Source of the DNA: a virus
Virus record (IMG/VR): IMGVR_UViG_3300009702_000001
Span: 64,001-87,621 of that record
Reading direction: 5' to 3' (one strand)
DNA length: 23,621 nucleotides
Position 1 is the first letter of the stretch; the number at the start of each line of letters is the position of its first letter. Shown piece after piece: positions 3,796 through 23,621 of the stretch. The notes under the pieces are model-generated. The model made no database searches and was not told the DNA's origin. It saw only the letters and a program-made list of their open reading frames with translations. Position numbers and translations under genes: made by a program.

Positions 3796-5256
3796 TCAAC
3801 TCCCGGGGTAAATGATGCCTTGCGGGGTAATCAACGGGACGGCCCAACGTTGGGTAATCTGTCCGCGCCGAATCAACCCCGGCAACGTTTCGTCAAGCAA
3901 CCGATAGGCAACAAATTCCGTTTCGTAGAAACCATCCGATTTGTAATGGTGCGTTACTTGGGTTGTGTAATAGTCCCCCGAGTAACGCCCAATGCCGGTC
4001 AACCTATGGACTTGGCGCGGCCGAATATCAGGGGTCCCAATAATGGTTCCCCGGGCCGTCATAAAATCGGCTTGAAATTTGTTGACCAAATTGAAAGCGT
4101 ATTCTTTAGCCTGTTTCTTATTCTTGAAAGGACGGTTTGACCATGTTTGAATGACCCTTCCGCCAACCTTGAATTTTAGTAATGCCCCGTATGCTTGGGT
4201 TCCCGAGTAGTCATAGGAGTCCGGGTCTGGGGGAGGGGGGGGCAGGGATTTATCTTGGTATGACAACCATTCATTATCAAGGTATCTTTCCCGTCTATCA
4301 AAATGGATTACTTCAATATCAGTAATCATTTTTGTAGTGTCAAGCGTAGGATGAAATTCAAGCAACGTTCCAACCGGACCGTTCCGGTTTTCGGTTGTCC
4401 TTTCAATTTGCTTCATATCCTTTGGGGTTGGGGTTCCATAATGGAAAACATACCCCCGGTCAAACTTGCCCGGCTTTTCCCTGTAATGGATGCAATACGT
4501 TTGATTGAAATCATCCCAATCAACCCAAGCCGTATATTGCCTTTTTTCGGCAATCTTCCGGATGAATTCCCAATCAGAAGTTTTCTTTTTCTTTACTCGG
4601 GTCCGAGCCCCGGCAACCCTATCAACGTCAATTGAAAATCCATAATGGTAGGCAATCCGGTCAATGATTTGGTCATCCCGTTGATTCTTGTAAACGCTCG
4701 GGGCTTGCCCCAATCCCTTCCGGCGCCCCCGTGCAATTGCGCCCCCGGTCAATTGCCTTGACCGCTTGGTTGTCAACCAGTCGGAACCAATCATTGCAAA
4801 CCGGCCGTCATAGCCGATGAATTGAATTGTTGGGATTCCGTCCCTTGTGAAATGGGGATGGGACCGGACGAAAACAAAACGCCCGTTCCGGTTCCATGTT
4901 TGTGTCCCATATCCCAGGTCAACAAAACAAGCGTCCCCCTCAGTAACCGCTTGACTTTGGGAAAGAACATAATTGACGTTTTGCATTGTCAATGTCAACT
5001 TGGTTGTCATTGATTCATCTTCTTCAACGTCAATAGAAGAAATGAATGCTTTTATCTTGTCTCCTAATTCCCTACCCTTAACAATGTCATCGGCCTTTTC
5101 GCTTCTTCCCCCGCCTTTGAATAGACTGAAAACCAATTTTGCGTTTGCGGTTACTCCGATACTGTTATTGATATCGGCGCCCGGTCCGGAATTAGTGTCC
5201 CTTTTCCAATAAAAGGAACCTAATTCACGTCTATCCCAAATAGGGGAACGGGGCAT
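3796..5256 (-). CDS. Baseplate hub protein, gpD/gp27-like
   Basis: A 486-residue protein from ATG 5256, which follows the previous gene's TAA by one base (TAAAATG). A TTG at 5289 would add 11 residues; neither start has a strong ribosome site. Features match the P2 gpD / Mu gp44 / T4 gp27 hub group: an N-terminal beta-barrel region with a conserved GFDGRFAM-like segment (here IGYDGRFAMIGSDWLTTK), a middle section DDQIIDRIAYHYGFSIDV, and a segment typical of the family, KKTSDWEFIRKIAEKRQYTAWVDW in two pieces. A proline run (about residues 345-350) forms a linker. Genes on both sides are baseplate hub or spike genes. The trimeric hub would join the tail tube to the spike. Confidence 0.78.
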   Translation of the reverse strand: MPRSPIWDRRELGSFYWKRDTNSGPGADINNSIGVTANAKLVFSLFKGGGRSEKADDIVKGRELGDKIKAFISSIDVEEDESMTTKLTLTMQNVNYVLSQSQAVTEGDACFVDLGYGTQTWNRNGRFVFVRSHPHFTRDGIPTIQFIGYDGRFAMIGSDWLTTKRSRQLTGGAIARGRRKGLGQAPSVYKNQRDDQIIDRIAYHYGFSIDVDRVAGARTRVKKKKTSDWEFIRKIAEKRQYTAWVDWDDFNQTYCIHYREKPGKFDRGYVFHYGTPTPKDMKQIERTTENRNGPVGTLLEFHPTLDTTKMITDIEVIHFDRRERYLDNEWLSYQDKSLPPPPPDPDSYDYSGTQAYGALLKFKVGGRVIQTWSNRPFKNKKQAKEYAFNLVNKFQADFMTARGTIIGTPDIRPRQVHRLTGIGRYSGDYYTTQVTHHYKSDGFYETEFVAYRLLDETLPGLIRRGQITQRWAVPLITPQGIIYPGS

Positions 5257-12866: not shown

Positions 12867-15209
12867 TTAGACTTCTTCAACTTCCGGGGTCCGATACAAA
12901 CTCGGAATTGCGCCGGCCGGAAGCGGTTGCTTTTTATCCGGGTTGCCGGTCCCGGCTTTTGCCATATCTTCAACGCTCGGATTGAACCGAGTTACCAACG
13001 CGGTTTGTTCCATATCGCGCAACCAAGCGTAAAAATCGCAAACGTAAATTTCAAAAGTCGCTTCCTTCAAATCAGAGAATTGCGGCTTTGGATTGTAGCG
13101 TGATACGGGAACAATTTTCAACGTATGTTCTAGGTCCAACGCTTTTGTTTTCAGGATGCCCCCCGGCTTATGTCCCGGTTGTTGGGTTGCTCCCCGAACA
13201 ACAAAAGAATATGCCTTTGTCATCAATCGAAGTGAATTAACAATCTTGCCGGTCAACAAGACACAATTGCAAACCATCCGTTCGACCCAAAGGGGAGCCG
13301 TAAATTTGGCGCCTTGTAACCTGTCCTTTAATGCCATATCATTGAAGGCTTCAACTTGCCTTCCCTGAAATGAAATTTGGTCAATGATGACAACGGGAGT
13401 TTTCCCAATTTCGTCATAATCCGTATTGGTAAAATTAACCGCAACTTCCGGAGCAACGTTCAAGCGGTAGAAAAGCCGCGTTCCTGCCGGAAGTGTTCCG
13501 GTCAAAATCGCTTCCCCCGTTACCGGGTCAAACGATTGCAACAAGTTTGTTTCATAATTGGGGTCCGTTGTTTCGTCATAAACTGATTCAATCCCAATGA
13601 CGTTCAAATCTTCTTCGGGAGTAAAGGGGTAATCCGTCTTGATATTGAATCGGTCCGAATCAGCTTCCAAGACACCCGACCAATCCATCAAAAAGGTAAA
13701 GTCTTCTTCAATCCTCGGGACCAAAGAACGCAAGACCAAATCTTCAAACCAATCAAAGGAAGCCGTCATCAACAACCGAGTCCCGAGCATAACCGGAGTT
13801 TTCCAACGGGAAGCGGAAATCAAGCGGCAAATAAATTGAATCTTCTTTTGCGTATGTGGGAACGCTTGGATATTCGCGGAAACTTCAAGGTCCGTATTCC
13901 AATCAGAAATCTTGGAAGCAATAACCCAAACCGAGCCGTCAAACCAGTAATCATCCGTTCCATCCGAAACGCGCCATTGAACAATCAAGCCCGGCTTGCG
14001 CTCGGACGCTTCTTCAAAACCGTCCCATCCCTTGACCGCTTGGGGAGACCAAAGGGGAAGCCGGCAAGTAATATCAACATTGGAAAGGCCAACGTTGACC
14101 GTTTCGGCATACAATTCCGTTCCTGAATAGTTGTCCCCGCCATAATAAAAAGCCCTTCCGGTTTGCGAATTGTAAACTATATTGGCAATCAGGTCCCGCC
14201 TTTTGCCGGAAGTAATTACAGTAAACCAACCAACCCCATCAAAGCCCCAAACGTCTTTTGCATGTTCAACCGTGTTATAGTCAACCGGATTCTTGTAATC
14301 ATAAACCCCCCCAACAATGACAACGGACTTCAAGTTTTCGTCATAGAAGCCGGAACAATACCAACGCGCCTTTGGGTTTTGTTCACTATATAACTTGACC
14401 CAATCAGACCCGTCATATTCCCAAGTATCATTCAACGCTGTTTCATTCGGATAAACGTTTTCCATTCCCCCGAACAAAACAACCCGCTTCCGATTTTTAT
14501 CATAGGCAAACGCGGCAAATCTTCGGGCAACCGGAGATTCAGCGGTTACAACTTGCGACCAATCAACCCCGTCATATTCCCAGGTTTCATTACTCGGGTT
14601 CTGCAATCCGCCTTTTGAACCCCCAAACAAAACAACCCGGCTCCGGGATTCATCAAAGACTATATGAGTTACATAGTGCGGCCCGGGGTTAGTTGCGGGG
14701 GTAGCAAGGGACCAATCAACCCCGTCATATTCCCAGGTTTCATTCAAAATACTTCCGTCATACCCCCCGAACATAACAACAACGTTTCGGACAGAATCAA
14801 AAACCATTGCCGAGTTGACCCGGGCAGTTGGGACGGTTGCGGTTGTTACCTGATTCCAAGCAACCCCGTCAAACTCCCAAGTTTCATTTTGATAGGTATA
14901 AGCCGGGGGTCCGTTTGTCCCCCCGAAAAGAACAACAACATTTCTTGCCGAGTCATATGCAATAGAAAAAGAATTGACCGCATTTGGCTTGACTGGTAAC
15001 GGGGCAACAACTTCAAACCCGAAAACGGAATTTGGAAATTCAACCTTCCGGGCCGATTGGTTATACCGAAACGGCTTCAAACGAATCCCAAGCCTTTCAT
15101 TATCCGAATACATACGGATTCGCTCGGGGTCCGAGAATTCCAATTCATCCCGTAACTGTTCTTTCAGGTCAAGGGAATGAATATAATATTTGGAAAGCGT
15201 ATCGGTCAT
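12867..15209 (-). CDS. Structural (neck/tail) protein with a six-blade kelch propeller
   Basis: A 780-residue protein between the tail-completion gene and the sheath. Residues 1-72 form a short N-terminal part (ends FPNSVFGFEVVAP). Residues 80-372 are six kelch-type repeats, each with a D..R..VV.FGG strand pair and an ETWEYDGVDW strand. Residues ~378-780 look structural and beta-rich, with VDITCRLPLWSPQAVKGW, QISFQGRQVEAFN, and a C-terminal ATFEIYVCDFYAWLRDMEQT. The propeller thus looks inserted into, or attached onto, a virion protein. Its ATG overlaps the previous gene stop (ATGA). I do not recognise the host protein; a neck or tail-terminator-associated role follows from position. Kelch propellers bind proteins or glycans, so surface binding is plausible. 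Confidence 0.75.
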   Translation of the reverse strand: MTDTLSKYYIHSLDLKEQLRDELEFSDPERIRMYSDNERLGIRLKPFRYNQSARKVEFPNSVFGFEVVAPLPVKPNAVNSFSIAYDSARNVVVLFGGTNGPPAYTYQNETWEFDGVAWNQVTTATVPTARVNSAMVFDSVRNVVVMFGGYDGSILNETWEYDGVDWSLATPATNPGPHYVTHIVFDESRSRVVLFGGSKGGLQNPSNETWEYDGVDWSQVVTAESPVARRFAAFAYDKNRKRVVLFGGMENVYPNETALNDTWEYDGSDWVKLYSEQNPKARWYCSGFYDENLKSVVIVGGVYDYKNPVDYNTVEHAKDVWGFDGVGWFTVITSGKRRDLIANIVYNSQTGRAFYYGGDNYSGTELYAETVNVGLSNVDITCRLPLWSPQAVKGWDGFEEASERKPGLIVQWRVSDGTDDYWFDGSVWVIASKISDWNTDLEVSANIQAFPHTQKKIQFICRLISASRWKTPVMLGTRLLMTASFDWFEDLVLRSLVPRIEEDFTFLMDWSGVLEADSDRFNIKTDYPFTPEEDLNVIGIESVYDETTDPNYETNLLQSFDPVTGEAILTGTLPAGTRLFYRLNVAPEVAVNFTNTDYDEIGKTPVVIIDQISFQGRQVEAFNDMALKDRLQGAKFTAPLWVERMVCNCVLLTGKIVNSLRLMTKAYSFVVRGATQQPGHKPGGILKTKALDLEHTLKIVPVSRYNPKPQFSDLKEATFEIYVCDFYAWLRDMEQTALVTRFNPSVEDMAKAGTGNPDKKQPLPAGAIPSLYRTPEVEEV
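14094..14972 (-). repeat. Kelch repeat block (six blades), with DNA-level similarity
   Basis: Six repeats of about 48-58 residues code for the propeller at residues 80-372 of the 780-residue protein. The repeats are visible in the DNA: on the plus strand, aaccccgtcatattcccagg and close variants recur near 14410, 14568, 14718 and 14867. Blades 1-4 keep the FGG and ETWE(Y/F)DG motifs. Blades 5 and 6 are diverged (IVGG…DVWGFDG; FYYGG). The same attcccaggtttcat stretch occurs near 91 in the left-edge gene. Confidence 0.75.
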
Positions 15210-18721: not shown

Positions 18722-19324
18722 TTACAGGGTCGGGTCTTCAAGGTTCTTAACCAAGACAACCGCGTCCGTATTTTCAAACTTGCAATCCACGGAAACCGTG
18801 ATTGCGTATTCGTTGACACCCTTGAAGATGTTTCGGTCCCGTTCAATCCGAACGTCAAGCCCAATGGCAAGAATCAGATTGCTCGGGTTGGTCAACATCA
18901 ACTTGCCCCCCGTCCGGTAAGAAACGCGGACGGTTTGCCCGGTCGTAATGCCGGCCCCCAAAGAAGTCCAAGTCCCGTTGGTATAGTCAACGGTGTAATC
19001 GGTTCCTTCAATGTAGGGAACAATTCCCGTTCCCGGGTAAATGGGAAGGTTGGTCGGAGTGATAACCACGTCCGAAATTGGCTTATGCGCCAACGCAACG
19101 GCAGTCAACGCGGCAACCGAATCTTCCGCGTAAAGCGGGGAACGTTCCATCAACGGAACGGGCATCAATTCAACCCCAAAGGGGGTCAAGTTGTTGACGG
19201 ACTGCAAAGCGTTGTCCCCGAGGGGGGTTGCCCGTTGGGATTGCGCTTCCCGGTATGCCTGTTCATGGTCGGGGCTCGACAGATACTTAATCAAATTCCG
19301 ATTGCGCCGGAATTTGGTAGGCAT
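18722..19324 (-). CDS. Major capsid protein, C-terminal part (after in-frame TAA)
   Basis: An ORF of 200 residues from ATG 19324. The same frame is open upstream from 19393, right after the TAA that ends the N-terminal part. It reads MPTKFRRNRNLIKYL, then SPDHEQAYREAQSQRATPLG, TPFGVELMPVPLM and a C-terminal strand set (ITVSVDCKFENTDAVVLVKN). These are HK97-fold capsid elements: a 'MP.K(F/Y)R' strand, 'Y....R.T.LGD' and 'G(V/I)...P.P.M'. Residues ~78-142 (VVITPTNLPIYPG… TVRVSYRTGG) look like an inserted beta-sandwich. A weak AAGG 11 nt upstream gives little support for independent translation. With readthrough the whole protein is 398 residues. Confidence 0.78.
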   Translation of the reverse strand: MPTKFRRNRNLIKYLSSPDHEQAYREAQSQRATPLGDNALQSVNNLTPFGVELMPVPLMERSPLYAEDSVAALTAVALAHKPISDVVITPTNLPIYPGTGIVPYIEGTDYTVDYTNGTWTSLGAGITTGQTVRVSYRTGGKLMLTNPSNLILAIGLDVRIERDRNIFKGVNEYAITVSVDCKFENTDAVVLVKNLEDPTL

Positions 19325-19393
19325 TGCAAGAATTGCCTTGTTGAAGATGGGACCCCCGATTGCCGCGTTTTCCGCGTCAACAACGTGTCCCGC

Positions 19394-19918
19394 TTACGCT
19401 TGCTTCAAGAAACCTTCAAAGGCGGAAAGGTAATCGTCCCCAATGTAATTGGTAGAAGAAGCGTCAAGGAAGATATCGGACTCGGGACGGGCAACCATCG
19501 GCAACATGCCCCCAATCCAAACTTCATCCAAGTTGTTGGCAAGCGTTGTTGCCATTTCTTGAATGATGGTATCTTCAACTTGGTCTTCTTCAATGTTGTG
19601 TCGCATGAAAAGGTCCCCGATTTCAAAGGGAACCATCATATCCACGGGTTGCAGGGTAACCCGGGAAGTTGACACAAGGCGCCGAATCATCGGGTCAACG
19701 GCTTCCGCCTTGCGGACGGCAACTCGGTTGCCAACCCCGATTTTTTCGATATACTTTTGTTCCGGGGTAAACCGTTCAATCCGCCCAACGTTCTTCAAGA
19801 CGCTTTCGTCAACAACGTAGGAAACGAATTTGTTGGCTTGTTCGGGATTCAGTTTCCCCGCGTCAATCAGTTGGGCCGTAGTGATTGCGGCCCGTTCCAT
19901 CAATTCCTTGTTGGTCAT
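19394..19918 (-). CDS. Major capsid protein, N-terminal part (ends at in-frame TAA)
   Basis: Starting at ATG 19918 (GGAAG upstream) it gives 174 residues ending FEGFLKQA-TAA. The sequence has the N-arm and E-loop/spine features of HK97-fold capsid proteins (VAVRKAEAVDPMIRRLVSTS; VPFEIGDLFMRHNIEEDQVE; DTIIQEMATTLANNLDEVWI; IGDDYLSAFEGFLKQA). The next 23 in-frame codons read AGHVVDAENAAIGGPIFNKA and so on. That is the expected continuation of such proteins ('G.L....VDA…') and runs straight into the C-terminal ORF at 19324. A capsid ending here could not fold, so the stop is a nonsense mutation, sequence error, or is read through. Confidence 0.8.
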   Translation of the reverse strand: MTNKELMERAAITTAQLIDAGKLNPEQANKFVSYVVDESVLKNVGRIERFTPEQKYIEKIGVGNRVAVRKAEAVDPMIRRLVSTSRVTLQPVDMMVPFEIGDLFMRHNIEEDQVEDTIIQEMATTLANNLDEVWIGGMLPMVARPESDIFLDASSTNYIGDDYLSAFEGFLKQA

Positions 19919-19972
19919 GGGTCTTCTTCCTTCCTTGGTAGCGTTGATTCGCTTGCTATGGTATGGGCCGCG

Positions 19973-23373: not shown

Positions 23374-23621
23374 TACCGAAGAAACCTATTGAAGTGTTCT
23401 TCCGGGTTCAATTCCCGGTCAATTCCCGTCAAGACTTCATCAACGTATTTTGAAACCCAATCTTCATTCCGTTCAACCGTCCCAACTTGACCGTCCCCCA
23501 TTTCGGTAGGAGCAACAACTTGGGCATTTTGCGCCAACGCAAACGTAAGGGAATAAGGTTGGTCAAGGTTGATATTTTCGGGAAGTGGTCCCAATTCCCC
23601 TTCAAAAATATCTTCCATTAA
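23373..23621 (-). CDS. Probable portal protein, C-terminal fragment (runs off the right edge)
   Basis: The frame is open to the window end (the last codon is TTA, Leu), so this is likely the 3' end of a longer gene. An ATG at 23618 could make an independent 81-residue protein. The residues seen are EDIFEGELGPLPENINLDQP, then a C-terminal acidic helix VERNEDWVSKYVDEVLTGID and EEHFNRFLR. No domain is visible in the fragment. The portal call rests on the gpF-like gene directly downstream (TAATG overlap), which follows the portal gene in PBSX/Mu-type operons. Confidence 0.5.
   Translation of the reverse strand, partial: LMEDIFEGELGPLPENINLDQPYSLTFALAQNAQVVAPTEMGDGQVGTVERNEDWVSKYVDEVLTGIDRELNPEEHFNRFLR

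Follow-up and report, generated by a model that had tools for sequence, protein, structure and literature searches.

An in-frame ochre codon in the HK97-fold major capsid gene of a contractile-tailed phage, probably a nonsense lesion or a consensus error

The major capsid protein gene described here lies on the minus strand at positions 18722-19918 of the window, the whole stretch of 23621 nucleotides that was analysed, which spans positions 64001-87621 of a virus record with a total length of 87621 bases (G000). It has 398 codons plus a terminal stop and a single interruption. At 19394-19396 the plus strand reads TTA and the minus strand therefore TAA, so that the frame, which also terminates with TAA, contains a second, internal TAA at codon 175. 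The part before this stop (19397-19918, minus strand) encodes residues 1-174, including a long helix at residues 114-136 of the structure model, and is preceded by the ribosome-binding site region at 19919-19938, where a strong site, AAGGAAGG, shows a duplex energy of -8.1 kcal/mol. Behind the stop, 23 codons (19325-19393) lead to an internal ATG, residue 199 of the gene and Met or Leu in nearly all relatives, from which a downstream part of 200 residues (18722-19324) is open on the same strand. The earlier note had described the two open reading frames, 19394-19918 (174 aa) and 18722-19324 (200 aa), as sharing one frame with capsid sequence between them, and this was borne out: the intervening 23 codons are conserved as capsid, 17 of 23 being identical to the nearest relative, L011.

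Residues 1-394 of the read-through product matched phrog_1623, a family of virion structural proteins of the head and packaging category, over positions 3-304 of 305 (E=5e-64), and all 398 residues could be aligned end to end to uninterrupted genes with 51-64% identity. A structure model computed from 25 sequences, namely the window protein and 24 uninterrupted relatives, reached a mean pLDDT of 81 and a pTM of 0.78. Its best matches among solved structures were the HK97-fold capsids of P4/P2, cyanophage A4, SPO1, P22 and phi812, as well as encapsulins, with E down to 2e-8 and a query TM of 0.30-0.48. A codon-bias scan revealed genome-typical coding bias on either side of the stop. Due to the full-length profile match, the end-to-end relatives, the continuing codon bias and the HK97-fold model, the stop lies inside a genuine capsid gene and not at a chance junction of two open reading frames.

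The surroundings are those of a major capsid gene, which is found between head protease and tail genes. Upstream are an XkdF-like head protease (PF14550; 21521-21958) and a Mu-F-like head protein, and downstream are contractile tail genes including sheath and tape measure. The record holds only this one capsid gene, with neither a second nor an intact copy. This is the phage's one gene for an HK97-fold major capsid protein, and the phage itself has a contractile tail. The earlier note was right on the gene identity, the reading frame and the single TAA in an otherwise intact gene of 398 residues.

Among known phages, capsids related at 26-28% identity occur, for example, in the Streptomyces phages TunaTartare and Yaboi. 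Capsid residues 268-337 (18908-19117) match phrog_807 (E=1e-6), a family of major tail proteins that contain an Ig-like domain, and since relatives in the group with 28-31% identity align with the capsid only over about residues 1-257, this stretch may be an inserted domain. Two other relatives, L079 and L080 (45-47% identity), come from a 100 kb contig of an Emcibacteraceae MAG and from one with the label archaeon MAG; the labels are possibly hints to the host, or binning noise. Adjoining the tail sheath gene, positions 12867-15209 encode a protein of 780 residues with kelch repeats (PF24681, PF13415), which is unusual among phage tail genes.

In-frame reading of 46 capsid relatives taken from viral contigs revealed no internal stop in any of them, whether at the site of codon 175 or elsewhere in the gene. 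Residue 175 is Glu in the four nearest relatives (51-64% identical) and Asp, Arg, Gln or Gly in those farther away; the earlier note had named CAA or another sense codon as what might refute the stop, and CAA is not what the nearest relatives indicate. As none of the 46 relatives shares the stop and the nearest ones have Glu codons, it is specific to this record. A search with two exact patterns found no near-identical sister record in the viral collection, from which very close records may be hidden. Identity to L011 amounts to 108 of 174 residues before the stop and 143 of 220 after it, and the terminal branch of the window capsid has a length of 0.44 before and 0.24 after. By these measures, residues 176-398 are as well conserved as residues 1-174, with no sign of relaxed selection past the stop, which indicates that the stop codon is either recent or decoded.

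The genome map in the record is complete and closes as a circle, because its first and last 123 bases are identical (G000:1-123 and 87499-87621, the latter at 23499-23621 of the window) and a portal-like gene spans the joined ends. The exact end repeat presumably represents a k-mer overlap from a short-read assembler. The 89 called genes of the record end in TAA (37), TGA (33) and TAG (19). TAA is not reassigned, since it terminates 37 of them, sheath and tape measure included, and a genome-wide reassignment of TAA or TAG was rejected, as each ends dozens of genes. Internal stops were absent from the terminase, portal, sheath, tape measure, DNA polymerase, helicase, primase, SbcC/SbcD and UvsX-like genes. 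Long-read indel damage was also rejected; no frameshifted gene was noticed in gene calling along the record.

A cluster of three tRNAs, Glu(UUC), Gln(UUG) and Leu(CAA), is located at G000:26774-27160 (L008:6774-7160) and matches the favoured codons of the genome, GAA, CAA and TTG, of which GAA is the commonest sense codon of all and one base off TAA. No ochre suppressor is among these tRNAs of the record, so that a phage-encoded suppressor tRNA was rejected, and a search of the record for a release-factor gene or domain found none.

A scan for stops with coding-like DNA on both flanks surfaced one more position, G000:39380-39382, where an in-frame TAG cuts a DNA-metabolism gene outside the window. 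This gene (G000:39170-40765, minus strand) runs from 40765 down to a TGA at 39170-39172 and sits between the DNA polymerase region and the UvsX-like gene. Its 69 codons past the TAG include a zinc ribbon (PF13248) above the cut-off, and its product ends in DEDEVPF, which is reminiscent of the acidic tip that single-stranded DNA-binding proteins carry. A weak profile match to phrog_12167 (26 bits) crosses the TAG without a net gap. Searches found relatives neither of this gene nor of its neighbour. For this reason the interruption, although likely to be real, is not as certain as in the capsid gene; the evidence for it comes from codon bias, the zinc ribbon and a single weak profile hit. The in-frame stops found in the record are, hence, one TAA in the capsid gene and this one TAG. 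Two further same-frame runs of open reading frames (G000:19102-20643 and 4138-4773) were considered as interrupted genes and read as separate neighbouring genes, and a serine recombinase at G000:16320-17027, ending in TAG, was considered as truncated and rejected as such, since it looks like a complete small resolvase.

We consider it probable that the capsid TAA is a one-base nonsense lesion in an otherwise normal gene. The most economical account is a single-base change to TAA at the variable position of residue 175, which is Glu in the nearest relatives; in this genome, no other codon contributes as much to the substitutions that yield TAA as the Glu codon GAA. As written, translation would end after 174 residues; neither piece would hold the whole fold, and the product would be unable to build a shell. 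We infer that the change either belongs to a defective allele within the DNA sampled or is a mistake of the assembled consensus sequence. Such amber or ochre lesions and consensus errors in phage structural genes likewise show one stop in an otherwise intact gene, intact relatives and a code unchanged elsewhere. The present record differs from this ordinary case in holding a second stop-interrupted gene, cut before its zinc ribbon and acidic tip, which speaks against a lesion, as does the expectation that a lytic phage with a capsid-less majority genome would not persist. We computed that, in this genome, about 4% of random substitutions in coding DNA create a stop. If all changes were random errors, two nonsense codons would point to about 63 substitutions across the record (Poisson range about 8 to 230). 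As 63 substitutions are high for a consensus, two errors would imply a low-coverage consensus or a damaged population.

The earlier note had called the gene dead, mis-sequenced or decoded. As a list of live options this stands, and the evidence favours the plain lesion or consensus error over decoding. According to the latter reading, the TAA would be decoded in a fraction of passages by a host suppressor tRNA or by a near-cognate, abundant Gln or Glu tRNA, giving full-length capsid late in infection, and the TAG of the second gene would be read likewise. We regard this as unlikely; it stays alive as a minority reading because two stop-interrupted genes occur within one otherwise intact, complete genome. 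Also in keeping with it are the constraint on the capsid sequence past the stop, the tolerance of Glu, Asp, Gln, Arg and Gly at residue 175 in relatives, and the phage's own tRNA-Gln(UUG) and tRNA-Glu(UUC), which are candidates for near-cognate reading. However, TAA, TAG and TGA all end genes normally, neither a suppressor tRNA nor a release factor is present in the record, just one hallmark gene is hit, and the stop codons of the two genes differ. The tRNAs are explained without suppression by their match to favoured codons, and capsid protein is required in bulk, for which inefficient reading would fall short.

Predicted RNA stem-loops at 19290-19391 (minus strand), starting 2 bases past the stop, would also suit a decoding event. 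They are stable, with a z of about -3.4, and none of 150 random coding stretches was as stable. On the other hand, the folds at the same site differ in seven relatives, which lack the stop and do not share the stem-loop, and stretches that overlap it are ordinary; a conserved recoding structure is, therefore, not evident.

A stop within the coat reading frame is also seen in programmed readthrough of virus coat genes, as in the A1 protein of Q-beta or the coat extension of luteoviruses, where the functional coat is the short product and the extension makes up a minor part. Here, in contrast, the stop splits the fold itself, and instead of a stop conserved at the same site, the relatives have none.

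Stop-reassigning phages (genetic code 15 with TAG=Gln, or TGA=Trp), for example crAss-like phages, resemble the present case in showing in-frame stops in structural genes of metagenomic phages (PMC9523058, PMC7886860), and late structural proteins made via reassigned stops have been confirmed by mass spectrometry (PMC9523058). Yet those phages carry many in-frame stops of one kind, often together with a suppressor tRNA, and their genes are fragmented under the standard code, whereas here the in-frame stops were a single TAA and a single TAG, all three codons terminate genes as usual, and no suppressor was found. The features that mark reassigned-stop phages, i.e., a codon rarely ending genes, many in-frame copies of it in conserved genes and an encoded suppressor tRNA, were all missing. 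Yutin and co-workers described the beginnings of such changes, namely a Gln tRNA whose anticodon had changed from TTG to TTA, and a genome that had begun to collect TAG in conserved genes, with first codons of this kind in the terminase (PMC7886860). Such early-stage code-change phages, and the report that suppressors may be host-encoded (Yutin et al. 2021, PMC7886860), lend the decoding reading some plausibility: our phage likewise has its own tRNA-Gln and one stop in a hallmark gene, but its tRNA-Gln keeps the TTG anticodon, and by this analogy the record would correspond to no more than the initial step of such a code change. That both stops mark a first step toward stop tolerance, with the capsid TAA and the TAG of the DNA-metabolism gene read by a host suppressor or by over-supplied near-cognate Gln and Glu tRNAs while all three stops still terminate elsewhere, seems to us slightly less likely again than decoding in general.

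Still more improbable is a defective element, that is, a provirus or phage-like plasmid no longer needing a capsid, in which the nonsense codon has been fixed. Such an element would be in line with two genes elsewhere in the record, which encode a winged-helix regulator and a small serine recombinase (PF00239), and with the closure of the map as a circle. No match to ParA/ParB was found, though, the remaining genes identified for head, tail and packaging have open frames, the capsid gene shows no decay beyond one codon, and the recombinase resembles a complete small resolvase rather than a phage integrase with a long C-terminal part. Finally, the earlier note had also raised two separate capsid chains, which would measure 174 aa and, starting from the internal ATG at 19322-19324, about 200 aa. 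This is highly improbable. An in-frame ATG does follow 23 codons past the stop, but the intervening codons are conserved capsid sequence, the capsid is split in no relative, the ATG corresponds to a Met/Leu position conserved in the uninterrupted gene and lacks a useful ribosome-binding site (-2.8 versus -8.1 kcal/mol at the true start), and the structure model puts the cut mid-fold.

Stops in the capsid gene have been used as markers of alternative codes (PMC7886860), and if the present one is a plain lesion, it calls for caution with automated recoding calls, one stop in one record being insufficient for them. If it were decoded instead, the capsid gene would offer an unusual example of a translated ochre codon and would capture a code change in its earliest phase.
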